From positions 1 through 28,356 of IMG/VR virus record IMGVR_UViG_3300009183_000291: a stretch of DNA of 28,356 bases, one strand, 5' to 3'. The number at the start of each line of letters is the position of its first letter. The stretch's first letter is position 1. The notes below the pieces were generated by a model that had not been told where the DNA came from, did not search any database, and saw only the letters and a program-made list of their open reading frames with translations. Positions 2,732 to 26,896 of this stretch are shown here, piece by piece. The DNA comes from a virus. Position numbers and translations under genes: made by a program.

Positions 2732-3388
2732 TTACCAATCTGTGTTGGTTGATGAAGTTACAGATGGAGTGTCAAACCCCAAATAGAATGCTTCCTGCTC
2801 AGCATAAGGAATTTTCTTTAGTGCCAATTCAAGAGGGTATGCTTTATGTGCTGCCCAATCAAATGGTTCCTTATCTGGTGCAGATGGAATTAATGTGTAA
2901 CTTGTTTCAGTACCCTGACCATTACGCTTTAACTTCCATGAAATATTTGAGATGCTTCCTGTTTCAAGAGCATACTCACGAATAGTATTAAATGCAGATT
3001 GCTTGCTTACACCCATTGACCAAATAGCCACATATGGTGCTTCAATTCCATCATCTACAAGTACGTTGCAATAAAAACGAAGACGTGCTCTCCAGCCAGC
3101 CTTTGGATCTTTGCGATGCATTTCTTCAGCCCAGTCACGGCCCTCAGATTCCATAGTGTCTACAGCCTTGCGCTTATAGTCTTTTGGATTTGTGTGTTCT
3201 TTAACAACTAGTGCCAATCCACGTTCTGGATTGTAGTTTGCAGAGTCTTCATCAAGTTCTTCAATGAATCTGATCTTTGCAGATTGTCCATCGGCAAGTT
3301 TTAACCATCTTACCTTTGGAGAGTTTTCATCATATTTTGGCTTATCAACTAGGGCATTAATGTTCTTGAGTCCCTTTACAATAGTCAT
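2732..3388 (-). CDS. Probable single-stranded DNA-binding protein (actinophage SSB type)
   Basis: 218 residues. I recognise the pattern RWLKLADGQ, then KIRFIEELDEDS, HRKDPKAGWRARLRFYCNVLVDDG and PYVAIWS as the family usually labelled ssDNA-binding protein in actinobacterial phages; it is not an E. coli-type OB-fold SSB by sequence. The expected role is coating ssDNA at the phage fork, and its place between primase and polymerase agrees. It has only one cysteine, so no zinc-binding cluster of the T4 gp32 type, and it ends TSSTNTDW rather than in a strongly acidic tail, so partner recruitment may differ. The ATG at 3388 has a good Shine-Dalgarno (AAGGA, nine bases upstream). A TTGACA-type promoter lies about 30 bases upstream, within the end of the primase gene, consistent with a need for many copies. 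The functional call rests on family memory, not on a structural motif. Confidence 0.72.
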   Translation of the reverse strand: MTIVKGLKNINALVDKPKYDENSPKVRWLKLADGQSAKIRFIEELDEDSANYNPERGLALVVKEHTNPKDYKRKAVDTMESEGRDWAEEMHRKDPKAGWRARLRFYCNVLVDDGIEAPYVAIWSMGVSKQSAFNTIREYALETGSISNISWKLKRNGQGTETSYTLIPSAPDKEPFDWAAHKAYPLELALKKIPYAEQEAFYLGFDTPSVTSSTNTDW

Positions 3389-3413
3389 ATTGTTTTTTCC
3401 TTTTCTGTTTTAT

Positions 3414-4337
3414 CTATCTTAACATGCCAATGATAGAATTGTCAAACTGGAACTCCAGTTTTTTAATTGCATCATCATCCATGTCGCCTATATCTTTATA
3501 TTTTTTATCTATATAAACAGATGTAACAACAGGTCCAAGTTTTTCAATTAACTTATCTCTCATTATTACGCCTGCATCATCGTTATCTGCAATCAGTACA
3601 ACGTTATTAAAATATTTTTCTAATAACTTTATCTGTGCTGCAGAAACATTTGCCCCTAGCGTAGCAACCGCAGGGAATCCAACTTGATCTAATCTAATTG
3701 CATCAAAAGATGATTCAACAACATAGACAGTGCTTGATGCCTTAATTCTATGAAGATTAAATAATACCTTACCTTTTGGCAATCCAGGTGTGTTTTTAAA
3801 TTCTTTTCCTTCAACAGTTCTAGCAACAAACCCTATGCACATTCCATCTGGTGAATGTACTGGTATTGTAACTGAATCTTGTTTTTCTGAATAGCCAAGA
3901 TTAAACTTATTGATAGATTCTTTAGTTATATTTCTTCCTTCAAAATATCTAAGTGCCCTTGGTGATTCTAAAGCCTGATTAGTTAATCGTTTGATTAATA
4001 GTTCATCATACTGAACAAACTCTGGTTTTTGAATTAAGGCTTTATTAACTGAGTCTTCAATGCTAGTTTCTTGTTCTTTACTTTTAATATATCTAATTGA
4101 CTCAAAGTATGTTCTATTAGATGTATGCATAATAAACTCAATAAGACTTCTAGTTGTTTGACATCCAAAACAAAAAAATGTTCCATGATCTTTTGATACT
4201 TCACCAGCAGGTGTTCTATTGTTATTATGGTATGGACAAAAAACAATGTAGTCTGTTCCATACTCTGCTTCAATATCAATTCCAGCGCCAGTTAGAACAC
4301 GACGGACCTGTTCTGCCGTATACATATCCTTAACCAT
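3414..4337 (-). CDS. dnaG: DNA primase (DnaG-type, CHC2 zinc finger plus TOPRIM)
   Basis: 307 residues from the chosen ATG at 4337. The N-terminal zinc finger is visible as C34-P-Y-H37 and C56-F-G-C59, the CHC2 pattern that binds template DNA. The TOPRIM catalytic core shows the acidic residue E208 (VVESSFDAI) and the DND motif D251/D253 (LIADNDDAG), which bind the metals for RNA primer synthesis. At 307 residues it is about half the length of bacterial DnaG and lacks a clear C-terminal helicase-binding domain. A longer frame starts at 4379, but I prefer 4337: it has GAGGA five bases upstream and overlaps the helicase stop by 8 bases (ATGGTTAA), a usual coupling arrangement, whereas the extra 14 residues look unlike primase. 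Made together with the helicase, it should form a primosome. Confidence 0.93.
   Translation of the reverse strand: MVKDMYTAEQVRRVLTGAGIDIEAEYGTDYIVFCPYHNNNRTPAGEVSKDHGTFFCFGCQTTRSLIEFIMHTSNRTYFESIRYIKSKEQETSIEDSVNKALIQKPEFVQYDELLIKRLTNQALESPRALRYFEGRNITKESINKFNLGYSEKQDSVTIPVHSPDGMCIGFVARTVEGKEFKNTPGLPKGKVLFNLHRIKASSTVYVVESSFDAIRLDQVGFPAVATLGANVSAAQIKLLEKYFNNVVLIADNDDAGVIMRDKLIEKLGPVVTSVYIDKKYKDIGDMDDDAIKKLEFQFDNSIIGMLR
3416..3445 (-). promoter_or_regulatory. Sigma-70-type promoter for SSB and DnaE, inside the primase 3' end
   Basis: Read on the minus strand: a perfect -35 TTGACA (3445-3440), an 18-base spacer ending in TGT, then TAAGAT (3421-3416), giving an extended -10 (TGnTAAGAT). The predicted start of transcription is near 3409, about 20 bases before the SSB ATG at 3388, leaving room for its Shine-Dalgarno. 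It overlaps the last codons of the primase gene. It is the only perfect -35 with a plausible -10 that I found next to SSB. Confidence 0.6.
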
Positions 4338-9685: not shown

Positions 9686-12600
9686 TTACACCTCCACTAA
9701 ATACAATGTCATTTCAGGACCAGAAGTGGTTCTTGAATATTGTATATTATACACAACAAATCTTAAATCATCTGAAGCAACAAGATTTATGTTGTCATTA
9801 TTTTTGTAATCAATTGTAACAATATCACCAAGTTGTATTGCTGGATTAGGAAAAATATTAACTCCAATAAGTTGTTTTGGTTTCATTATTTTATTAACAA
9901 TCCAATTCATTAATTCATCTGCATCGTCTTGTGTCTGTATATATGGAGTGTCAAGTGTAAAGTCATTGTTTCCGTATATCATTCTGCTTAGTTTAATTTC
10001 ATCATATTTTGATTGTTCAACAAGGGGAGAATATACAACAGAAGAACTATCTAACTGTTGATTTAATAAATTACTTCTTTTTCTAAAATATTCATCTACA
10101 GTTAATTCGTGAGTTGTATCCTGTGTAAATGTTATACCTTGAATTCTTAAATAGTTTCCAGTAGTTTCATCTAAGTTTAGTGATGTATCTGTTGCATTAA
10201 ATATTAAAAATTCTGCACCATATGAGTCTGCATAAAATCCAGAACTTACGTATCCTTTTAATCTATTAAGTGTTGGGCTTAATTTAGAATATAATGCTGG
10301 ATATGCACGATCGTATTTAATATCAAAGTATGCACATTCCCTCATGGTTGTTCCAAACTCTTCAAAATACATATTATACTTTGGTGGTTGCTGAGAACTT
10401 ATGCCAGATAAATAGGTTGACTTTATAATGCCACTCATTGCATATTTTCTAAATGACTCAGAAGCATTGACCTCTGTTGCACCAAATGCCGATGATAGGT
10501 TTTCGCCAACTGTAAACACTGTATTTTGTGAATAGTTTTCTGATAATGCGTAAAAGTTTTCAAACATACATCTTGATGAGCCACGGACAAAAAGAGCAGA
10601 GTTGTTATAAACTGGTAGTGGATCTGTATCATCAACAGTTTTAATTAGTTTATTATTTATATAAAGATAGAATCTTCTTATATTTCCAATATCTTCATAC
10701 TCAACAGCAAGGTCATAGACTGTTGGAGTTTCTTCTGAAACCATGCGATACTGTCCAGTAAATCTACCATCATCAACAACAATTTTTGATAACCCTCCCC
10801 AAAGTTTTACTGGAACTGCATTTGTGTTTGAAGAATCTTTTTTAATTTTATAAAAAACAACATTGTTAATTTCAATTGAAGATTGACGATTTGTATTTAA
10901 TTTTAAATAAGACTCTATATTTTTTTCTGTTAATGCTGCAATTTCAAAATAATAGCCGTTGTTGGTTGTTGGATTGAGTAACATTGCTATTCCACCAGAG
11001 CCACCACCAATGCTAACATTTTTATCTGGTGCTGATCCAGTTACTTGATAAAACGTTGTGCTGCCAATTGGCGTTTGTGTTCTGTTTTCATTGTTTTCAA
11101 TTTTTCCAACTATACGCATTCTTGTTCCAAAATGTTTATATGAATTGTTTAATTCTTTATATACATAAGAAACAAAGTTAATTGGAGTTTCTGTATTCGT
11201 AAATGATGGACCATTCATAATAAATGCTGATGACTGAACTGTACCGCTTTGTGTTGATGTTAGTTTATTTACATCTGTTTCTGTTAAAAAAGCAGATGAT
11301 GAAAAATTCTTAATAATTCCATTTCTAGATGCTTGTCTTGCTTTTGTATTATTAACTCCTGCTGCACCAGTTGTTGTGGCTGGTCTTGTAATATCATCTA
11401 ACAATGTAGTTGTATATAAATATTCTGCCTTCATATCACAACCACGAACATAATCATTGTTAGACCAATATGATGAAAGTCCAGCAGAATGATTTGCTAT
11501 TGTTGTTCCAAATTGTGCACGACCATGTTGATATACGCTTCCGTTTTTTAAACGAGTAACTCCATCAACTGTTTCATAATATGGCTCAGTATAAATTCTT
11601 ATTAATCCAGTTGGATATATTTTTCCATTAAAAGGCAAAGAAGAAAAATAATTTTGATACTCTTGATTGCTAGAAATCCAAACATTTCCAATGCCAGTTA
11701 CGCTATATTCTGCTGCATCATATTTAACTATTTCACCATTAGCATAAAGAAAACCATTATATCTTGTTAGACCATAAACGTTTTCACCAATATCTATAAT
11801 GTTATTTGTTATTTGATTATTTACAACCGTTGGCTCTGAGTCTGTTAAGTCTGAATTTAAAGGCATTGCGCCAAGTACATAACTTCCTTGTTTTGAAACT
11901 ATAGAGTTAATTGTTTTTAAATTATCAGTTCCTGCAACTTCCCATAAAAGAACTGGCTTATAAATCCATGTTTGTTCTTTATCAATCATGTTTGCTTGCT
12001 TTACTGATCCATATGATCTTTGTATGTATCTTGTTGTATAATTTATTTTTCCATTATTATAAACTTTTTTATTTTCTGATGTTATTTGAAAAATATTTGG
12101 TAGTGTTCCGCTAGTTTGATTTTCTATAATTCCATCTTGTGTTTGATTATTTGTTCCTGATAAAACCATATTGGTACTTCTATCTTCAATAGTTGGAAGT
12201 ATATAATTTTTACTCATAACAATAAAATTATTATACTCATCAAAAAACATTGCTGTTTGTGTTGAAACTGCTAATTGATTTAAAACTTCTGCAACATTTT
12301 GATCTGGAGCAATAAAAAAATACGGAATAATTGGATCATTTTCAGATACAATTCTATTAAATGAATAATTACTAAAACCAATATAGTCAAGAAGCAAACT
12401 TATTGCGTAACTTAAAGACACTTGTGTAACAAGCATTCTTGGAGCAGGCATTGACTCTAAGAAAAAATAAAAATCTCTTAATTGAATTTGTAAGGTTGCA
12501 CCAGTAGTGTCTGCTTGTGGAAATCCTTCAGAGTAAAGGGTTTTTAGTGGAACCCAATAATCAAATCCATCAACATTTAATATTTTTTCATAAAAGTTAA

Positions 12601-14003: not shown

Positions 14004-14636
14004 TTAGACCTCTTCCAGATTTACCGAAATATTCCAGAGATCATGATTGTTCCCACCACGCTTTACAACAGAATAACTAAAGTCTGCAAAATATACTTGA
14101 ATGATTTGATTGTATTGCCCAAGATGATTATATTCATCTACTCCTGAAAAATTATTATGTTTATCATATGCAAGGTACATCCAAAATGGTCCTTGATGAT
14201 TTTCATACCATTCAAGAATTTCTCCTCCACCTGCACCACCGTCTGATGTGTATTCATTTGTTGTATTAAAATTTGAAGATTTTCCAGTTGTGATGTTAAA
14301 GTTTGGATCATCTGCATATGATCTTGATGGAACCATATCCCAAGAAACTGTCATATTAAGTTTATCTGCAATATGATATGAACGCATGCGACCATTAATA
14401 GTTCTTTTTCTTTGTTCAATTCTTTGTGGAGCAAAATTCATTTCAGTGCGATTGTGGTCTGTTAAGACAATAAACTGGTCTAATAGATTTGGATCTGTTT
14501 CATTGGTATCGGCCCCAACTTCAAATCCAGTTGGAACATATAATCCATTGCTTAGTGTTCCAGCATTTTCTGACCAAAGAATTCCTTGTGGTCTTTGATA
14601 TCTTTTTCTTCCAGAGATATAAGCGCTTGTAGCCAT
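14004..14636 (-). CDS. Distal-tail-like minor tail protein
   Basis: 210 residues, directly after the tape measure gene, the usual position of the distal tail protein (Dit) that closes the tail tube and carries the tip. Visible features are a basic N-terminus (SGRKRYQRPQGILW), a beta-rich centre (KLNMTVSWDMVPSR) and a C-terminal strand (VYFADFSYSVVKRG, WNISVNLEEV) typical of tube-like beta barrels. The ATG overlaps the tape measure stop by one base (TAATG), so it is translationally coupled. The Dit assignment is by position and fold impression; I would only be firm on minor tail protein. Confidence 0.82.
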   Translation of the reverse strand: MATSAYISGRKRYQRPQGILWSENAGTLSNGLYVPTGFEVGADTNETDPNLLDQFIVLTDHNRTEMNFAPQRIEQRKRTINGRMRSYHIADKLNMTVSWDMVPSRSYADDPNFNITTGKSSNFNTTNEYTSDGGAGGGEILEWYENHQGPFWMYLAYDKHNNFSGVDEYNHLGQYNQIIQVYFADFSYSVVKRGGNNHDLWNISVNLEEV

Positions 14637-17600
14637 TATGCTCTTTGTCTCCTAATTCTTTGTGCATCAACTTGTTTAATTTTTGTCATAACGGCATTTG
14701 CAATTTCATTTGGATTTGCATTTGATCCATTAACATTAAACCCTAGACTATAATTATACACTGCCGTTGAGTTGTCGCTAACAGATGTTGAAACGCTATT
14801 AATAGGGACCTGGCCAGATAATCCAGATCCAATCATTGATGGATATTTTGATTCATTTAACATTGAAAGCAAAGGACCAAATTCTTGAGTTGCTTTTTTA
14901 TTCATTACAAATTCGCCAGGAGTTAGCATTGCTGGTACGGTATCTGAACCAATTCTTCCACCAACAGCCATATATTTAGGAACCATTCCACCCATGGACA
15001 TTGGCGTAATCTTTCCACCATACATATTTGTTTTACCCTTTGTTGTAGGGCTTCCACTGGTAGTATAAACTGTATTAATTATATGAGTTGTAGTTACTGT
15101 TGTATCAAGTTTTTTAATTGTATTTAAAATCCCTTGTGCTTTATCTTGAGCATTTTTAAGTTCATTTTGATATTCTATTGATTTTACTTTTGCTGAATCA
15201 ATAGCAAGTTGTATATCTGTGTATTTCTGTCTTTCAAGATCAAGGCTTTGCAATCTTTGATTTAATCCTTCTTGAAGTGGTAATAATTGATTAACTTGAA
15301 TATTATAATTTGCATCTTGCAATGCTTGTATTTGTTGCATCAATGGAATTTTTGCTTGTTCAAGAGCATATGTTTTTTCGCCAATTTGATAAATTTGTTC
15401 TTCAATTTGTTTTCTTGTAAGTCCTTGTGCATTTTTTAAATTATCTATTTCAAATTGACGAGCACTAGAAATTGAATCTGTTGCTCTTTGCTGTGCACCA
15501 GCAGCACTTGTTGCTCTAACTTGTTGAATTGCTTTTGCTGCTGCAGAAATATCTCCAACACTCAAAGCACTAGCAATGTCTAGTCTGCCATTTTCTTGAT
15601 CAATTATTTGTTGGTTAACCTGTTGAATAGCACTTAATGCTTTTTCTTGTGCATCATACTTATCATTAATTCCTTGTGCAGACTTATCCATTAATGATAA
15701 ATCATGATTTAAGATTGTTGATTGTGCTTCTAGGGCTGCAATCGGACGATCATACTTTATTTCAATTTCACGTTGTTTGGTATCAATTAATTTATTATTT
15801 AAATCAATTACTTCCTGTAATTTATCAATTTGTGGTTGGAAAGATCTACGTGCTTCACGTTCAAGAACATCATAATATTCCATGGCCTTATCTGTTTGCA
15901 TTTGCCAATATCTTGATGGATCTGTTGTAAGCAACATATCTTCTTCTGCTTTTTTTCTTTCTTTAATAGAATTTACAAGTCTTTTATATTCTTCTGTTGT
16001 TTTAGCAGCAGCAAGGGCAGCAGCATTATCAGCATTTGTTATTAATTCTAAAGCGTCTGCTGCACTTATTCCAGCAGCAGTTAATTCTCTAAACTTTTGA
16101 GATTGTAAAGAAAATTCTTTAGCAAGTTGTTTATTGTTATTTTCAAAATCTCCAAGTATTGCTTCGTTAAAACTTTTAAATAATTTTTCACCATCTTTAG
16201 TTAATGTTACAATACCATTTTTAATCTTAATAAATTTCTTTTGTATTGCTGGTTCAAGGCCTCCAATAAAATCAATCAATTCGCCACTGGCACCTAATTT
16301 GGCAAGTTGTTGATCTATGCCTTTGAATATTTTAATGTCTCCGCCTGCTTTGAGCATTACTCGTCGCAACTCTTCAAGTCCACCTTGAGCATTTATAGAT
16401 GCATCACGCACACGCTTTAGTCTAGTTAATAAGTCATCAAGATATGTTGGTCTTTGTCCTGGTCCTGGATTTTCTCCACCTACAGGTGGTGCAATAGTTA
16501 AGTCTACTCTTGCATTTGTTACTGTTTGTCCAAGAGCATCTGCATACTTTTGAATTTGAAGTGGCATTGAAAGATTCTTATATTGACTTCCACCAAGTGG
16601 TCCAGATTCTTGTTGCCACTTTTTAAAATCTTCACTGCCCTGAATTTTTGCTTGATCCATATTAATAATAGTTGCAACTTCTTGTAGATAAACAGCCTTC
16701 TGTGCTTGATTTAATTTATTGAAATAATCTATATCTATTGCACCCATTGCTTTTGGAGGTAAAAAAGTAGTTGCAACAGCAAGATCTAGTTTTCCTTCAT
16801 TCTTTTTAATTGCGTCAAAAACTCCTTGAAGGGCTGCTTTAGCACCTTTATTTTTGTCATTTAAGTAATAGTCGGCAACAATGCCAACATCAAGAATTCC
16901 AGCGCTTTGTCCTAATGCTGCATAAAAATCAATAAACTGCTGGGCTTCTGGTCCTTTTTTTTGTAAATCAAGTTTAGCAATAAAATCAGTAGAAACCTTT
17001 GTATTTTGTTTTCCTTCTTTATCAACAAATGCTCCAATGACTTGTGAAACTTGTGCACCAGTTTTACCACCAAACCTAGTCATAATATTAACTACTTTGT
17101 CAAACGATTTTTTATCATTCCCTAAAACATTAACTAAAGTAATCATATCTGATGGAGCAATGTTGCCTGCACCCATATTAACAGTCAGCACATATTCATT
17201 TTTACCGCTTACACCCTTTAGCAACTCTTGTGCTGCTCCAACAAACTGTTCTTGTCCAGTTCCTTTATATTGTGCTTTTGCACTTTCTTTAGCAGCATTA
17301 AGTAATCCTGCCTGAGTATTTCCTTTTGAAGAATTATATGCTGTTAATACTGCTTGATTTGTTTTTAAACTTTGTTTATCTAAAATGTTTCTAGCAGCAA
17401 TAAGTTTATTTTGCAATTCTTTTACTCTGACAATATTTCCTTCAGCCTCTGCCTGTTTAATTAATTTTTCATAATATTGATCAAGAGATGCTCTCAATTC
17501 ATTTTGTTGATTAAGTGCTGCTTGCTGACTTGCAACTGCTGCTCCAGTTAATTGACCAACAACTTTTGCTTGTCCCGCAATTGCTTTGACTGCAATAAAA

Positions 17601-20600
17601 CCTCCTGCAAGAGCGCCTGCTGCAGCGCCCACAACTGCTCCAATTGCATTTCCAATACCTGGAACAACAGTTCCTGCTGCTGCACCTACTCCTGCTCCTG
17701 CAGCAACCATTCCTCCAATTCCAACATTTTTATTCATTGATCCAAGACCCATATTTGATAACTTAATTCCTCCAGCATCTTGTGCTGCTTTTGATGTCTT
17801 TCCAACTTGTTTTGTTGATTCTTGAATTAATTGAAGTCTAACCTTAAGTGGTGTTTTTAATAAATTATTTCCATCTGGCCCCATTAATGAATCTAGTTGT
17901 GCAGCCACTGTTAGTCCAAGAGGTAAATCTCCAAGTTCTTGTGCAACATTTACTGCAAGACTTCTTGCTTGTTCTACTGAAAATAATCCAGAAGCAACGC
18001 CTGTTGATAGTTGTGAAAGAAGTTGTTGTTGTGCACCCTGTCTTCCACCAGCATTTTTATCTGTAATGGTTTTTGTAAGTGCAGAAACTATTGATTTTCC
18101 TTGTTCTCCTTGAACAAAAGCAGATCCAAAAGTTGTTTTTCCTGCTTGCACTGAGAATGGACTAAATTGTTTATTTCTCTTATAGTCTGCAAGTTCTTGT
18201 GCTGAAACTTTTCCAGCAAATTTAGCAAGACCTTCTAGTGCTTGTTTAGTTGAAGATATCTGTGTACCTAAATCAAGGGCTTCATAATTTGCTTTATTAA
18301 ATGTGTCTCTAATAGATTTAGTTGCTAAGTAGAATGATCCAAGCATTGCTGTTGCAACAATAAGAGTACTCTTCATAGGAGTTAAAGCCATACTTGATTT
18401 TGTAAGATTTTGGGTAAGCATTGAAATACCCTGGATTGCAAAAATCAAAGGTAAAATTTTTTGAGCAATTTCCCCAAGTTTTCCACCAGTAAAGGATGCA
18501 CCAATTGCTAGTGCTCCAAGTGCACCAGATACTTGTGCTGCTTTTTGTCCATAAACCTTTTGTTCTTTTGTGCTCTGTGTAACCTGTTTTGTTTCTTTTT
18601 CAAGTGCTGCAGTATTTGCTTTTCTTGCTTCTTCTGCTAATTTGAGATTTTTTTCTATTAATGCTCTTGGACCAATGGCGGTTGTTTGAGACATTGGAAC
18701 GCCTACTCCAGAAGATATTTTCCCATCTGGCCCTATAGTAAGACCACTATCTGCTCCAGCCATCCATTTAATACCACGATATCTTGAAGGAATAATAGAC
18801 TCATTTGGCTTTAATGTAACAACTCTATTATCTTTAGCACTTTTTGTTCTTACATTTTTAGGTTTTGGTTTACTGTTTTTATCTGTAATTGGGATATATT
18901 TTCCATTAGCATCTTTAATATATTCGCCTTTTTGTGCTGCAACTTGTTCTGCTTTTTTGCTTTGAGTTGGTTTTTCAGTAATGTCTGTTCTTGCTCCACC
19001 AGCACCCTTACCTAGGGAAACTCTATTTCCATTGTCATCAATATAGTGTAAACCACTTATTTTAGTGTTACCATTTGATCCAGTTCTTGTTACAATGTAG
19101 TGTGCTTTTTCTGGAAAACGATAACTTCCTCTTCCAATTGCTTCTGAAACTTTTTGTCCATTTGGTAATATTTCATCACCATTAATAACTTTAATTGGAT
19201 AGTTTGGAGCACCACCATTTGCAATAGCCTTTTCTAACAGTTGCTGTGCACTCTTTGGTGTGCTTCCTAATCCTGGACCAATAGTATATCCAGATACACT
19301 TTGATACTTTTGCAACATTTTTTGATATGCTGATGTTTGTTTTACTTCAGGTGGTAAATTCTTAAATGCATCTTCTATCATTGAATCTGTAATTCTTAAT
19401 TCAGTTCTTGGTCTACCGCCTGCATTGATAGTTCTTTTTTGAAGTTTTGTTAATATTGCATCATCTATAACTGCTGCTTCTGCTGCAGAAAAACCACTTG
19501 CAGCCCATTTTCCAGGACCTCTTGATATCCACTCTTTTTCAAACTGTGAAAAACTAATGCCATTTCTATTGGCTAATCCTCTATTTAAACTGCCAGAAAA
19601 TGAAAAACCTAGTGAGTGTCTTGTATTTGATGAAGTTTCTTTTCCAGTAGACTTTAAAAACCTCTTATAAAATTCAAGTCTGTTTCTATCATTAGAAGTT
19701 AAATTTTGATTTTCAAGTAATTTATCAATATCCATTTTGCTTGATTGACCAACATGCGTAAATTGATCACCAGCATCTGGAGTTCCTGTTCCAAACTTTT
19801 TAAGTTTACCTGAGAATAATGCAGAAAGAAGTGATCTGCCTTCTGTACTTTGTGCAATCTTTTTTGGAATAACTGCTTCTCCAGGCATAAGCATTGCTGG
19901 AACGCTGTCTTTATTTCCTGTTCCTGGAACATATTCAATGCCTGATGCAAGTCCTTTAGGTGGTTTTCCAGTTTTTCCTGGCATCATCATTCCAGGATTT
20001 ACTCTTGCAAAATTTGCTGCTGCTGCCGTTGCTTGTAAATATGCATTTCTTAATAATGTAACTGCTTCTGTTTCTAATGCAAATTGTTGTGTTAGTCTAT
20101 TATGTGCTTGATTTAAAGATGCTGCAACCGTTGCTGCTTCTATTTGTGCAGAATTCATATATGTTGTTTGTTCTGCAAGTGCTGTTGAACTTCCACCTAA
20201 TTTAGAAAAACCAATTCTCATTGTTAAAAATAATTTAAGAATATTTGCTGCGCCATTGGCAAGAAGACCAAATGTCATAAGCAATGCTGGTCCAACAATT
20301 CCAGCAAGGGTTGTTAATATAACAAGGAATTTTTTAGTTCCATCTCCAAGATTATTAAAACTTTCAAATATTTTTGAAATGCCTTTAATAATTGGTGTTA
20401 CTGCTTGTAAAAATGTTTTTCCTATTGGTGCTATTGATAATTTAAGATCTTGCATAGATGCTTTAAAATTAGTTCCAACAGCATCTTCTACCGTTTTTAG
20501 TTCTCGTTCTGCAAGAATTGCTAGTTCTTCAATTGAAGATTGTGTTAATCCTAAAACACGATTAGCCTGTGTTCCATCTTTTGTTATATTTTGAAAAAGT

Positions 20601-21955
20601 GTTGATAAACGAGCAAATTGGAATTTTCCAAATAATTGTTCAATTGCTCTTGATCTTTCAAGTGGGGCTAATGTATCTAATGCTTGTGCAAATCCTACAA
20701 CTGTTGCTTTTAAGTTTCCAGCATTTCCTTCAACAATTCCTTTTATATTTATACCCATTCCTTGAAGCATTTCTGATGTTTTTTTAGTTGGGTTAATTAA
20801 TGATGCAAGACCAGATTTAAGTGCGTTAGCACCTTCTGATGCATTGATTCCACCTTCCTTCATTGCAGTCATAAAAAATGCAAGATCTTCTACAGATCCA
20901 CCTAGTTGCTTTACAACTGGTCCAGCCTTTGGAATGGCAATAGTTAAATCTTCAATAGATAAAACAGTTTGGTTTTCAACTGAGTTAAGAAAGTTAATTT
21001 TAGATGCAAGATCTTCTGCTGCAATGCCAAAAGCGTTTGTTAAAGATGTTGTAGTTTCAAGTGCTTGACTTTGCTCAACATTACCTAAAATTGCAAGCCT
21101 TGTTGCTTCAGCAACCTGTGCCGTTAATTCTGCACCAGTTTTACCCATAGCAGCAGCCTCTGAAGCCATTCTCATGGTATCTACAACTGCAACACCATAC
21201 TTAGTAAATGACTCAGCAAGTTTTTGAATATCGTCTAATGCTTTTTGTGTTTCTCCAGTAGCAGTAAACATGTCACCATAAACACGTTTAAACTTAATTG
21301 CTTGTGCTTCAAGATCCATAAATGTTTTGGCTGCAGCAGTACCAAAATATGCAAGTGGTACGCTAAAACCAACCATTAATTGACGACCAGCCCATTGTGT
21401 ATTTTTACCAAAATTTAAAAGATTTGTAGATCCTTGTTTAACCAGTTGATTAAACATTGCTTGTTTTTGTGCTGCTAAGGCCGTTTGTGTAGCCATATCT
21501 TTCATATTAAGATCTTTTGGCATTATTGCAATTGCTTGCATTGCTCCGTTGGCATCTCTGCCCATCTTGATATACTGTGTCTGCATTTTCTTGACACGTT
21601 CTTCGGCTACCCTGCCAATTGTGTCAAATTCAGTTCTGAATACTTTTCCAAATGTTTTTGTTGCACCACCTGCATAACGGAAATACTCACGCATTGAAAG
21701 TTTATTGTTTTCAAGTGCGTGAGTAAATGATTCCGTTGATGTTCTTACATAGCCCATCTGGGCTGTAAATTTACCTGTTGCATTAATTGAGTTTAATAGA
21801 TTAGTCTGTAAACCCTTTTGAGCAAGTTGTGCTGCTGCACTGCCTTTTGCAACATTGGAATAAAAAAGTGCTAACTGTTTTTGTAAGGCTTTAAGTTCTG
21901 CTAACGCTGCTGACGTATCAATATGTACGCCAATATTGGCATTAACATCACTCAT
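14636..21955 (-). CDS. Tape measure protein
   Basis: 2439 residues, the largest gene; it sets tail length and occupies the tube lumen. At about 1.5 angstroms per residue it predicts a tail near 360 nm. The N-terminal third has the TP901/PhageMin core character (NTQWAGRQLMVGFSVPLAYFG, long Ala-rich helices). Hydrophobic stretches lie near 545-580 and 1165-1215, a glycine-zipper segment near 1411-1461, and long coiled coils at about 2000-2280. The tape measure signature VPAMLxPGE occurs twice (about 685-693 and 2340-2348), with a degenerate copy (LKPNESIIPSRY) near 1048; a non-repetitive polar domain of about 340 residues separates the first and the degenerate copy. It ends in a basic tip (DAQRIRRQRA). 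The ATG at 21955 is led by GAGGTG nine bases upstream. Confidence 0.96.
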   Translation of the reverse strand: MSDVNANIGVHIDTSAALAELKALQKQLALFYSNVAKGSAAAQLAQKGLQTNLLNSINATGKFTAQMGYVRTSTESFTHALENNKLSMREYFRYAGGATKTFGKVFRTEFDTIGRVAEERVKKMQTQYIKMGRDANGAMQAIAIMPKDLNMKDMATQTALAAQKQAMFNQLVKQGSTNLLNFGKNTQWAGRQLMVGFSVPLAYFGTAAAKTFMDLEAQAIKFKRVYGDMFTATGETQKALDDIQKLAESFTKYGVAVVDTMRMASEAAAMGKTGAELTAQVAEATRLAILGNVEQSQALETTTSLTNAFGIAAEDLASKINFLNSVENQTVLSIEDLTIAIPKAGPVVKQLGGSVEDLAFFMTAMKEGGINASEGANALKSGLASLINPTKKTSEMLQGMGINIKGIVEGNAGNLKATVVGFAQALDTLAPLERSRAIEQLFGKFQFARLSTLFQNITKDGTQANRVLGLTQSSIEELAILAERELKTVEDAVGTNFKASMQDLKLSIAPIGKTFLQAVTPIIKGISKIFESFNNLGDGTKKFLVILTTLAGIVGPALLMTFGLLANGAANILKLFLTMRIGFSKLGGSSTALAEQTTYMNSAQIEAATVAASLNQAHNRLTQQFALETEAVTLLRNAYLQATAAAANFARVNPGMMMPGKTGKPPKGLASGIEYVPGTGNKDSVPAMLMPGEAVIPKKIAQSTEGRSLLSALFSGKLKKFGTGTPDAGDQFTHVGQSSKMDIDKLLENQNLTSNDRNRLEFYKRFLKSTGKETSSNTRHSLGFSFSGSLNRGLANRNGISFSQFEKEWISRGPGKWAASGFSAAEAAVIDDAILTKLQKRTINAGGRPRTELRITDSMIEDAFKNLPPEVKQTSAYQKMLQKYQSVSGYTIGPGLGSTPKSAQQLLEKAIANGGAPNYPIKVINGDEILPNGQKVSEAIGRGSYRFPEKAHYIVTRTGSNGNTKISGLHYIDDNGNRVSLGKGAGGARTDITEKPTQSKKAEQVAAQKGEYIKDANGKYIPITDKNSKPKPKNVRTKSAKDNRVVTLKPNESIIPSRYRGIKWMAGADSGLTIGPDGKISSGVGVPMSQTTAIGPRALIEKNLKLAEEARKANTAALEKETKQVTQSTKEQKVYGQKAAQVSGALGALAIGASFTGGKLGEIAQKILPLIFAIQGISMLTQNLTKSSMALTPMKSTLIVATAMLGSFYLATKSIRDTFNKANYEALDLGTQISSTKQALEGLAKFAGKVSAQELADYKRNKQFSPFSVQAGKTTFGSAFVQGEQGKSIVSALTKTITDKNAGGRQGAQQQLLSQLSTGVASGLFSVEQARSLAVNVAQELGDLPLGLTVAAQLDSLMGPDGNNLLKTPLKVRLQLIQESTKQVGKTSKAAQDAGGIKLSNMGLGSMNKNVGIGGMVAAGAGVGAAAGTVVPGIGNAIGAVVGAAAGALAGGFIAVKAIAGQAKVVGQLTGAAVASQQAALNQQNELRASLDQYYEKLIKQAEAEGNIVRVKELQNKLIAARNILDKQSLKTNQAVLTAYNSSKGNTQAGLLNAAKESAKAQYKGTGQEQFVGAAQELLKGVSGKNEYVLTVNMGAGNIAPSDMITLVNVLGNDKKSFDKVVNIMTRFGGKTGAQVSQVIGAFVDKEGKQNTKVSTDFIAKLDLQKKGPEAQQFIDFYAALGQSAGILDVGIVADYYLNDKNKGAKAALQGVFDAIKKNEGKLDLAVATTFLPPKAMGAIDIDYFNKLNQAQKAVYLQEVATIINMDQAKIQGSEDFKKWQQESGPLGGSQYKNLSMPLQIQKYADALGQTVTNARVDLTIAPPVGGENPGPGQRPTYLDDLLTRLKRVRDASINAQGGLEELRRVMLKAGGDIKIFKGIDQQLAKLGASGELIDFIGGLEPAIQKKFIKIKNGIVTLTKDGEKLFKSFNEAILGDFENNNKQLAKEFSLQSQKFRELTAAGISAADALELITNADNAAALAAAKTTEEYKRLVNSIKERKKAEEDMLLTTDPSRYWQMQTDKAMEYYDVLEREARRSFQPQIDKLQEVIDLNNKLIDTKQREIEIKYDRPIAALEAQSTILNHDLSLMDKSAQGINDKYDAQEKALSAIQQVNQQIIDQENGRLDIASALSVGDISAAAKAIQQVRATSAAGAQQRATDSISSARQFEIDNLKNAQGLTRKQIEEQIYQIGEKTYALEQAKIPLMQQIQALQDANYNIQVNQLLPLQEGLNQRLQSLDLERQKYTDIQLAIDSAKVKSIEYQNELKNAQDKAQGILNTIKKLDTTVTTTHIINTVYTTSGSPTTKGKTNMYGGKITPMSMGGMVPKYMAVGGRIGSDTVPAMLTPGEFVMNKKATQEFGPLLSMLNESKYPSMIGSGLSGQVPINSVSTSVSDNSTAVYNYSLGFNVNGSNANPNEIANAVMTKIKQVDAQRIRRQRA

Positions 21956-21980: not shown

Positions 21981-22316
21981 TTAATTATTTGATGCAAGCA
22001 CTGTATTTAGTAGTGCATTTGCATCTGTAAGTTTAACTCCAGATGCTGCTTCAATAATTTCATAAACTGTTGGAAGGTCTAAAATTTCCTCCAGTTTTTT
22101 AATGTCTTCAGCAATTTCAGGCTTATATTGTTCCATAGCAATTTGAACACATTCTAGAAGCAATGTCATTGATTTTTCATTGTCTTCTGCCACTGCTGCT
22201 ACACCTTCAAACTTTTTCATAAATGGACGAAGCAAAGAAATCTTAAGTGGGCGCACTTTGATTTTTGTTCCATCCATTAAAGTCAGTTCTGACCCCTCAT
22301 GTACTGTTGTTGCCAT
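21981..22316 (-). CDS. Tail assembly chaperone, short form (G-like)
   Basis: 111 residues. It aligns along its whole length with residues 1-96 of the long chaperone encoded just upstream: both begin MATTV, then share xxDG, PLKI, LR-FM--FE-V, ECV-IAM-QY-PEI and DxPTxY--I. By hand roughly 40 of 96 aligned positions are identical with one gap. It stops just after the shared domain, so it lacks the long form's C-terminal half. It should coat the tape measure protein during tail assembly, as lambda gpG does. It has its own extended -10 (TGCTATAAT) and a strong Shine-Dalgarno AGGAGG seven bases from the ATG, both better than those of the long form, which implies higher expression. It lies immediately before the tape measure gene. 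Confidence 0.85.
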   Translation of the reverse strand: MATTVHEGSELTLMDGTKIKVRPLKISLLRPFMKKFEGVAAVAEDNEKSMTLLLECVQIAMEQYKPEIAEDIKKLEEILDLPTVYEIIEAASGVKLTDANALLNTVLASNN

Positions 22317-22323
22317 TGATTTT

Positions 22324-22329
22324 CCTCCT
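22324..22329 (-). promoter_or_regulatory. Strong Shine-Dalgarno of the short tail chaperone
   Basis: AGGAGG on the minus strand, seven bases before the ATG at 22316. It contrasts with the long chaperone's weak AGAAAG and supports unequal output of the two paralogues. Confidence 0.8.
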
Positions 22330-22344
22330 ATATAGGCTAAGTTA

Positions 22345-22353
22345 ATTATAGCA
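22345..22353 (-). promoter_or_regulatory. Extended -10 promoter of the short tail chaperone
   Basis: Minus strand TGCTATAAT, a perfect extended -10 (TGn plus TATAAT), in the 45-base gap between the two chaperone genes. No convincing -35 is present (TTAGAA 16 bases upstream at best). Predicted transcription start is near 22338, giving a leader of about 22 bases that contains AGGAGG. Confidence 0.58.
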
Positions 22354-22361
22354 TAAAAACA

Positions 22362-23057
22362 TTATTTTCTAAGGTCTTCATAATCAATACCCATTCCAAT
22401 TCCAAACCCTGCTTGCCTTGCATTCTGACCTTGAAGTGCTAATATATCATTGCTGTCATTTGTTGCACCTTGACTAAATACTCTTGCCTTCATATCTTCC
22501 CATTCTTTTTGTCCCTTCTCAGATCCAGACTGTTTATCTAAATCTACTCCCTGTATTGCTGCAAGAAATTTTTTTTCTTCATAGTCAAGTTCTCTACGGC
22601 TTGAAATGGTTGCCATTAATTCTGGCATTGATAAAGATTCTTCAAGTTCTTTATAATCCTTCCAGATACCAAGCAAAAAAGCCTCAGACTCTATTTTTGC
22701 AAGATCCAGGTCTGACCATGTTGCTCCACTATCTGTTGCTTGATCTTTTACAGTTTCTTCTGATTTTTGATTAATCTTAATTCCAGCAGACACATCTAGT
22801 ATTTTATAAATTGTTGGCATATCAAAACTATCTTCTACTGCTTCTTTTGTTTTTGATATTTCTGGATAGTATTGTTTCATTGCTATTCTTACGCATTCAA
22901 CTAAACTTTCTATGGCTTCGTCATCATTTTTTGTTAATTTAACATCTTCAAATGCCTCCATAAATTCACGTAAATATTTTATTTTTAATGGAGTTATCTC
23001 TAATTCTGAACCATCAATTAGATTTATTATTTTGCTTTGATATACAGTTGTTGCCAT
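22362..23057 (-). CDS. Tail assembly chaperone, long form (GT-like)
   Basis: 231 residues. Residues 1-96 are the shared chaperone domain also found in the short paralogue. Residues 113-231 (SEAFLLGIWKDYKELEESL, MPELMATISSRRELDYE, KARVFSQGATNDSNDI, GFGIGMGIDYEDL) are the T-like C-terminal domain I associate with long tail chaperones of actinobacterial phages; in lambda-like systems this part recruits major tail subunits to the tape measure/gpG complex. Here it is encoded in one continuous frame, so no frameshift is needed. The ATG at 23057 has only AGAAAG as ribosome binding site and lies nine bases after a -10-like TAGAAT, so a transcript from it would be nearly leaderless. Expected to be the minor partner in stoichiometry. 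Confidence 0.87.
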   Translation of the reverse strand: MATTVYQSKIINLIDGSELEITPLKIKYLREFMEAFEDVKLTKNDDEAIESLVECVRIAMKQYYPEISKTKEAVEDSFDMPTIYKILDVSAGIKINQKSEETVKDQATDSGATWSDLDLAKIESEAFLLGIWKDYKELEESLSMPELMATISSRRELDYEEKKFLAAIQGVDLDKQSGSEKGQKEWEDMKARVFSQGATNDSNDILALQGQNARQAGFGIGMGIDYEDLRK

Positions 23058-23066
23058 AATCTTTCT

Positions 23067-23075
23067 ATTCTACCA
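23067..23075 (-). promoter_or_regulatory. Extended -10 promoter of the long tail chaperone
   Basis: Minus strand TGGTAGAAT, five of six -10 matches plus the TGn extension, placed directly after the U-tract of the upstream terminator. No -35 is seen. The predicted start of transcription is near 23060, only about three bases before the ATG at 23057. Confidence 0.48.
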
Positions 23076-23080
23076 TAGGC

Positions 23081-23111
23081 AAAACAAAAAACCCACCTCG
23101 TTAGAGATGGG
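23081..23111 (-). terminator. Rho-independent terminator after the major tail protein
   Basis: Transcribed on the minus strand: CCCATCTC, loop TAAC, GAGGTGGG (8 base pairs with one G-U), followed by TTTTTTGTTTT. It begins 23 bases after the stop of the major tail gene. It should end most transcripts of that gene and lower read-through into the chaperones. Confidence 0.9.
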
Positions 23112-23134
23112 CTTTAAGTTAATCTAAATCTAGA

Positions 23135-23767
23135 TTATGACTGGCCCCAAGTACGATCTACGATCTTACCGTAAGAACCTGATACATCTTCAGGAAGAAG
23201 ACGGAATGAAACTTCAAACATTGATGGCTCATCACGCTTAGCGGATACAGTTACGTTCTCAATTGATAGAGCACGGTAGGCTGTATAAACACGCTCAACG
23301 GTGTCAGATGCATCGCAATCTCCAGTTCCTGGACCAACAGCAACGATTCCTCGTTCTACTGGACATTCTCCAAGTTCACCTGCAGATAGGTTAAGAACCT
23401 GACCTGTAGATGCTGCCTTGTTTCCTGTAAGTTGTGTGTCTTTGAATGCTAGTGCAAGAAGCAAGTTTTCTAATGTTGCTTCAGCAAAAGCGGTAGCAAG
23501 ATTAACTTGCATACCTTGCTTATATAGTTTTGCAACGTCAAGAATCTGATCAACTGCAACCTCACCGAAATCAGGTTGGAATTGTAGTTCAAGACCGTTC
23601 ATTGTGTAACCTACGTTAGTATAGGCTGCATCCGCTGAAAGCGTAGTCTTGAAAGACTCGCTTGAATCAAAACCTTCCAGTGTTCCTGGAGTAAGTGTTG
23701 TGTCTGCAACGAATAGTGCTGCTGCACCAACGATAATGTTATTTGACGTACCACGGCTATATGGCAT
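23135..23767 (-). CDS. Major tail (tube) protein
   Basis: 210 residues, the right size and place (directly before the chaperones and tape measure) for the tail tube subunit. The sequence is a beta-rich tube fold type: GAAALFVADTTLTPG, then YTMNGLELQFQPDFGEVAVDQ, a central helix (KLYKQGMQVNLATAFAEAT) and late strands (RALSIENVTVSAKRDEP, SMFEVSFRLLPED). Codon use is distinctly richer in G and C than neighbouring tail genes, as in the capsid gene, fitting very high expression. The ATG at 23767 has GAGGTG eight to nine bases upstream. A TATAAT lies about 60 bases upstream and a strong terminator just downstream, so it can be transcribed as its own unit. Confidence 0.9.
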   Translation of the reverse strand: MPYSRGTSNNIIVGAAALFVADTTLTPGTLEGFDSSESFKTTLSADAAYTNVGYTMNGLELQFQPDFGEVAVDQILDVAKLYKQGMQVNLATAFAEATLENLLLALAFKDTQLTGNKAASTGQVLNLSAGELGECPVERGIVAVGPGTGDCDASDTVERVYTAYRALSIENVTVSAKRDEPSMFEVSFRLLPEDVSGSYGKIVDRTWGQS

Positions 23768-26887: not shown

Positions 26888-26896
26888 ATTATACCA
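26888..26896 (-). promoter_or_regulatory. Extended -10 promoter after the capsid gene
   Basis: Minus strand TGGTATAAT, a perfect extended -10, just downstream of the inverted repeat that follows the capsid gene. No -35 of quality is visible. The predicted start near 26881 gives a leader of about 17 bases with GGGAG before the ATG at 26864. Confidence 0.58.

Follow-up and report, generated by a model that had tools for sequence, protein, structure and literature searches.

The G/GT frameshift ranks among the most widely conserved viral recoding events, and it is thought to be kept for the fixed chaperone ratio that it provides in tail assembly. In phage lambda, slippage fixes the proportion of gpG to gpGT at about 30:1, on which tail assembly critically depends, with G binding the tape measure and T binding the tail tube protein (PMC5009743). 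The T4-like phages are the exception to G-T frameshifting named in that review (PMC5009743), and the Microbacterium cluster EA phages are reported to have two chaperone ORFs that are expressed with no evident frameshift (PMC7302621). The analysis presented here indicates that a large group of uncultured tailed phages probably makes its two chaperones from two genes, and that opposite start signals probably now set their ratio.

Gene order and domain content of the locus

The window, that is the whole stretch of 28,356 nucleotides that was analysed, represents a 28-kb piece of a virus record, and the relevant genes all lie on its minus strand. The following genes and domains were assigned:

23135..23767, minus strand: major tail protein gene, the upstream neighbour (phrog_2175, E 3.6e-33; phrog_885 "major tail protein", E 0.012)
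22362..23057, minus strand: long gene, predicted fused G-T-like tail assembly chaperone of 231 aa (ORF, BLASTP, PHROG profiles, AlphaFold model)
22767..23057, minus strand: G-like N-terminal domain of the long gene, residues 1-97 (BLASTP, PHROG profile)
22365..22736, minus strand: T-like C-terminal domain of the long gene, about residues 108-231 (phrog_10474; homology to the -1-frame ORF of Circinus/BillNye)
21981..22316, minus strand: short gene, predicted stand-alone G-like tail assembly chaperone of 111 aa (ORF, BLASTP, PHROG profile, AlphaFold model)
14636..21955, minus strand: tape measure protein gene, the downstream neighbour, 2439 aa (PF10145 PhageMin_Tail, E 9e-24; position)

In Circinus and Braelyn, the place that corresponds to the gene at 23135..23767 is taken by genes annotated "major tail protein". 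Both chaperone-like genes sit between the major tail protein and tape measure genes, like the lambda-type G/GT pair, and this gene order is identical in the window and in annotated Streptomyces phages. The original prediction had read the pair as two paralogous genes, a GT-like one followed by a G-like one, and both open reading frames were recovered in that order on the minus strand. Kinship to Streptomyces phages suggests a possible actinobacterial host for the window phage.

BLASTP alignment of the long and short N-terminal domains showed 41 identical residues out of 97 (42%) and 73% similarity with an E value of 1e-28, which rules out a chance resemblance and agrees with the roughly 40 of 96 positions that had been counted by hand. 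Both N-domains matched the G-like family phrog_10504 (E 1.6e-23 and 1.1e-20), while the T-like family phrog_10474 was matched by the long protein only, at residues 131-221, so that the T-like C-terminal domain belongs to the long gene alone and lies in a continuous frame, as had been proposed. The T domain of the long gene is 45% identical to the -1-frame ORF of Circinus/BillNye.

Structures were predicted for the long and short proteins from alignments in which rows from annotated phage records were left out, giving AlphaFold models with a mean pLDDT of about 72. In the part that the two proteins share, the elements follow the same order in both models: strands at 9-12 and 18-21, and helices at about 26-40, 45-63, 71-78 and 80-92. 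A search of structures and families had been proposed as a check. It gave the PHROG 10504 and 10474 matches and, in BFVD, a best fold match that bears the name "Tail assembly chaperone" (E 6.5e-7, TM 0.75), the target being itself a predicted structure and likely a relative; the PDB fold search with both models returned no significant match, the solved chaperone HK97 gp13 (2ob9) scoring E 4.0 and TM 0.41 against a model with pLDDT of about 72.

That neither protein is a tail chaperone would accord with this empty PDB search and with the fact that families 10504 and 10474 carry no assigned function; this reading is nonetheless hardly credible, given the location of both genes after the major tail protein and before the tape measure, the one-to-one homology to genes annotated as tail assembly chaperones in many Streptomyces phages with the -1-frame layout, the chaperone-named BFVD match, and a profile match to the tail assembly chaperone family phrog_1932 (E 0.018). 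A chaperone function of the long and short proteins is thus predicted from sequence and models.

Two layouts among relatives and the fate of the slip site

Among annotated phages, tblastn matched 127 records of Streptomyces phages that resemble BillNye, Circinus, Braelyn and Paradiddles. In those phages G occupies frame 0 and T the -1 frame; the two pieces, located between the "major tail protein" and the "tape measure protein", bear the annotation tail assembly chaperone or hypothetical, and the short protein used as query found exactly one G place per record in all 127 cultured phage records. The survey was extended by IMG/VR scans, in which the window and 438 loci of other records were classified by HMM; locus totals include overlapping fetches of one contig, and distinct counts are given separately. 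A fused GT was found in 260 loci (184 distinct), and 177 loci (119 distinct) have just one G, the T being in the -1 frame; two loci, L391 and L414, end before T.

A second G lies downstream of the fused GT wherever the contig extends far enough. Intermediates, either a frameshift gene with an extra G or a fused gene without G, were sought in the viral scans and none was found, the sole fused contig without a second G (L064/L116) stopping inside the long gene. One scan of cellular genome contigs yielded no relative. The two-gene layout, which it had been proposed to look for in related phages, is therefore neither chance nor an assembly error of the window contig, a one-off contig or artefact being ruled out by the 184 distinct loci. 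These counts are not independent events, and the two-gene state most likely arose once.

Some fused loci depart from the common arrangement. The short gene is broken in one contig (L046/L108), and a gap of about 780 bp separates the long and short genes in L018 (from about position 10725), L020, L021, L022 and L049, and by spacing in L027. The product encoded in the L018 gap is a SAM-dependent methyltransferase-like protein of 215 aa (PF13649, E 4.7e-17), and the short-gene promoter there is intact.

A classical in-frame heptamer was present in 105 of the 119 distinct frameshift loci, always within the G/T overlap. It is CCCAAA[C/T/A] or GGGAAAC, read as GAC CCA AAC/AAT/AAA in 89 of the 119 and in the GGA AAC form in 16. 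The other 14 loci all encode D-P-E with CCCGGAA and have no classical heptamer. Among the frameshift relatives, those of Braelyn type (L004, L192-L200, L202, L203, L206, L212) keep T in the -1 frame with CCCGGAA in place of the classical X XXY YYZ, and L281 and relatives among L336-L350 use GGGAAAC, not CCCAAA[CT], as slip site.

In the fused lineage, by comparison, CCCAAA[CTA] was found in the long-gene linker or short-gene tail of none of the 164 distinct loci scanned; a single chance CCCAAAG occurs at the extreme end of the short gene in L325. A hidden slip site in these regions was also sought by scanning the same 164 loci for any in-frame X XXY YYZ, which gave only scattered, unconserved heptamers, and the tail of the window short gene contains none. 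No T remnant was detected by HMM 3' of the short gene, in the window or in relatives; an apparent extra T in L246 proved to be a short tandem duplication (about 3327-3420) that breaks the T frame. Heptamer scan and HMM search therefore bear out the earlier statement that the short gene ends without a slippery heptamer and without a T-like frame beyond it. In the window and the 184 distinct loci, T is reached in a continuous frame with no conserved heptamer, unlike in a lambda-type -1 frameshift.

The short-gene tail carries what may be a trace of the ancestral site:

22017..22025, minus strand: GATGCAAAT (D-A-N), putative remnant of the ancestral slippery site GAC CCA AAT (D-P-N) (alignments, codon counts)

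The short tail, with GIKLNDPNALAAALVGTN, aligns with the tail that frameshift G proteins have when read beyond their slip site, with GVKLTDANALLNTVLASNN, so that GAC CCA AAT of the frameshift G's corresponds to GAT GCA AAT at window 22025-22017. Across the fused loci the short tail retains the pattern KL-[ND/TD]-A-N, and D-A-N in the short-gene tail reads as a decayed slip site.

The direction of change, from frameshift to two genes, is drawn from how general G-T frameshifting is (PMC5009743), from the slip codons that the lineages have in common and from the remnant, and not from the G-domain trees, which are unrooted. A fused two-gene layout that was ancestral, with the frameshift layout derived from it, would be compatible with trees in which the root is not inferred and with a major tail protein tree whose labels need two changes in either direction. 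It is very improbable all the same, because frameshifting is the general state of long-tailed phages, GAC CCA AAY in both the Streptomyces and the environmental frameshift lineages would need a fresh origin, and the short tail resembles a decayed site. The proposal that two genes stand in place of the frameshift thus fits the relatives, which have a single G, T in the -1 frame and mostly a heptamer, the fused lineage having lost the heptamer in both copies.

Contrasting start signals of the two genes

The regions upstream of the two genes differ in the following signals:

23088..23115, minus strand: intrinsic terminator in the interval between the major tail protein gene and the long gene (12-bp stem, 4-nt loop, T run; -19.6 kcal/mol, z -5.3)
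23067..23075, minus strand: TGGTAGAAT, extended -10-like box, 9 nt before the long-gene ATG (conservation in relatives)
22345..22353, minus strand: TGCTATAAT, consensus extended -10 promoter box of the short gene, 28 nt before the ATG (exact in relatives)
22324..22329, minus strand: AGGAGG, Shine-Dalgarno of the short gene (duplex -10.2 kcal/mol)

A simple sigma-70 scan found promoters no more frequently than in shuffled sequences, and a test of the extended -10 across relatives was therefore needed. Upstream of the short gene, TGnTATAAT was exact in 169 of 174 distinct loci, in 144 of 144 in another set, and in 76 of 79 loci thinned to less than 80% similarity, as against 0.4% of shuffles. 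The median Shine-Dalgarno energy was -10.2 kcal/mol for the short gene versus -0.3 kcal/mol for the long one; the short gene had the stronger site in 170 of 174 loci, and a strong site (-7 kcal/mol or below) preceded the long gene in none of the 174.

All 60 relatives that were sampled have a terminator in front of the long gene. A TGnTAGAAT-like box, with TG and at most one mismatch, preceded the long gene in 165 of 174 relatives (about 6% in the shuffled control) and ended 5-9 nt before the ATG in 161 of 174; the long gene is without a clear -10 in 5-6% of loci. Leaderless genes, which make up more than 20% of genes in Actinobacteria, are recognised by a TA-like signal some 10-12 bp ahead of the start (PMC3160421). 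With its TANNNT-type -10 box and lack of a Shine-Dalgarno, the long gene falls into the TA-led class as defined there, and its mRNA is predicted to be leaderless. Elsewhere in the window, TGGTATAAT at 26888-26896 on the minus strand, 5 nt before the ATG of the gene at 26882-26529 that follows the major capsid gene, forms a second start of the leaderless type.

The low-GC frameshift relatives carry the same -10 before their single G (84 of 99 exact) and the same strong Shine-Dalgarno, which indicates that the ancestral start region was passed on to the short gene and that the start region of the fused gene is the altered one. The contrast in promoters and ribosome-binding sites did not figure in the original prediction, and it may offer a way of keeping the short protein in excess.

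Ancestry of the two copies and comparison with known systems

In three G-domain trees the long copies formed one clade and the short copies another, with support for the long and short clades, respectively, of 100 and 97 (each marked with an asterisk), 100/99 and 98/88, and 100/98 and 100/94. A union of long and short received 41/69 support in one tree and was not rejected in another (p-AU 0.515), and one frameshift row (L231) neighbours the long clade. As the union is neither rejected nor shown, and with L231 beside the long clade, the trees are compatible both with tandem duplication and with a gain by recombination.

The environmental frameshift G's lie at a tree distance of about 1.0 from the short copies versus about 2.3 from the long ones, and the short gene is about 55-63% identical to their single G; the short gene is therefore the conservative descendant. 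These distances bear on a reading in which the short protein has diverged into some other, accessory function and a G-sized product still comes from the long gene itself, through a frameshift, premature termination or proteolytic cleavage. The strong divergence of the long N-domain from the frameshift G's, with both genes still present, would suit it, as would A-rich stretches such as CAA AAA TCA close to the domain border in the window. It is the short and not the long gene, however, that is nearest to the single G of the environmental frameshift relatives and has their promoter and ribosome site, and the heptamers of the long linker are scattered, occur in a minority of the 164 loci and are never CCCAAA; such a division of roles is therefore improbable.

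Within one genome the long and short copies share an identity of only 0.30-0.53, and dN/dS of about 0.06-0.12 for long-N, T and short indicates purifying selection, hence that both genes are maintained. Together with the single clade of each copy, these values agree with the view that the event is old and that both genes have been kept since, as had been suggested from their divergence. In the same pairs, the median dS was 0.33 for the short gene versus 0.89 for the long N-domain and 1.16 for T, which may reflect recombination or synonymous constraint.

Mosaicism was seen when L005, L006, L008, L153 and L168 were compared with window 21981-23057: loci closest to the window by the long gene (94-96%) were only 71% identical in the short gene, and those closest by the short gene (87-89%) were 70-78% identical in the long. 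Such mixing of alleles is what would be expected if the second G were a xenologue acquired by recombination from another phage and not a tandem duplicate made within the lineage, and a quick tree placed the short clade among low-GC frameshift G's and the long clade elsewhere. A single clade of long and short is, on the other hand, not rejected, and the long branch of the fast-evolving long copy could account for the tree placement, so that a foreign origin is a fair possibility, though less likely than not.

The best explanation of the window locus is that it encodes gpGT-like (long) and gpG-like (short) tail chaperones as two genes that derive from an ancestral frameshift gene, an account to which we assign a probability of roughly 80%. 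In the ancestor, a -1 frameshift at C CCA AAY would have linked T to G within one G/T gene. A segment that includes G would then have been duplicated beside this gene, or a second G allele gained by recombination; the upstream copy would have become an in-frame G-T fusion, and the downstream copy would have lost T and the slip site, leaving G only. The downstream G would have retained the ancestral strong promoter (TGnTATAAT) and Shine-Dalgarno, while the upstream GT, behind a terminator, would be read sparsely from a leaderless mRNA that lacks a Shine-Dalgarno and starts from a -10 box 5-9 nt before the ATG. Transcripts from the GT promoter would continue into G, which would also be expressed from its own promoter and strong ribosome site together with the downstream tape measure. 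With read-through, its own promoter and a strong ribosome site, G is expected in excess over GT, as under frameshifting, and the G:GT protein ratio should favour G. Most likely, duplication and unequal initiation took the place of the fixed ratio that frameshifting had set. That the whole lineage swapped a recoding-based ratio for one based on transcription and initiation, with a weak leaderless GT behind a terminator and a duplicated G with ancestral strong signals, the ratio being free of the slip rate, is held with somewhat less confidence and still appears likely.

A frameshift-free lineage, close relatives that keep the frameshift and a putative slip-site remnant together allow a clean comparison of whether the frameshift itself is needed or just the ratio. 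The locus shows a concrete path by which a recoded gene may be split in two, and the long/short loci provide matched gene pairs for laboratory tests. A literature search that lay mostly within papers outside subscription found no description of a fused GT with a paralogous G, of a slip-site remnant or of opposite start signals.

Like lambda gpG/gpGT, the window phage is predicted to make two products with a common N-terminal domain and a T domain on the longer one only, encoded between the major tail protein and the tape measure; unlike lambda, it has two genes and no slippery site, so that the ratio would have to come from initiation and not from elongation. Its closest cultured relatives are the Stanwilliamsviridae (Streptomyces phages BillNye/Circinus, Braelyn and Paradiddles), with about 37-45% identity in both domains and the same gene order, whereas their records contain one G only, T being in the -1 frame, and no stand-alone second G anywhere. 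The Microbacterium cluster EA phages, compared by description only, are alike in having two chaperone ORFs without evident frameshift, and differ in that the passage on them mentions neither a GT fusion accompanied by a G paralogue nor a contrast in start signals (PMC7302621). For the T4-like phages, likewise compared by description, the review gives no GT fusion with a G paralogue (PMC5009743), the combination that marks the present locus.
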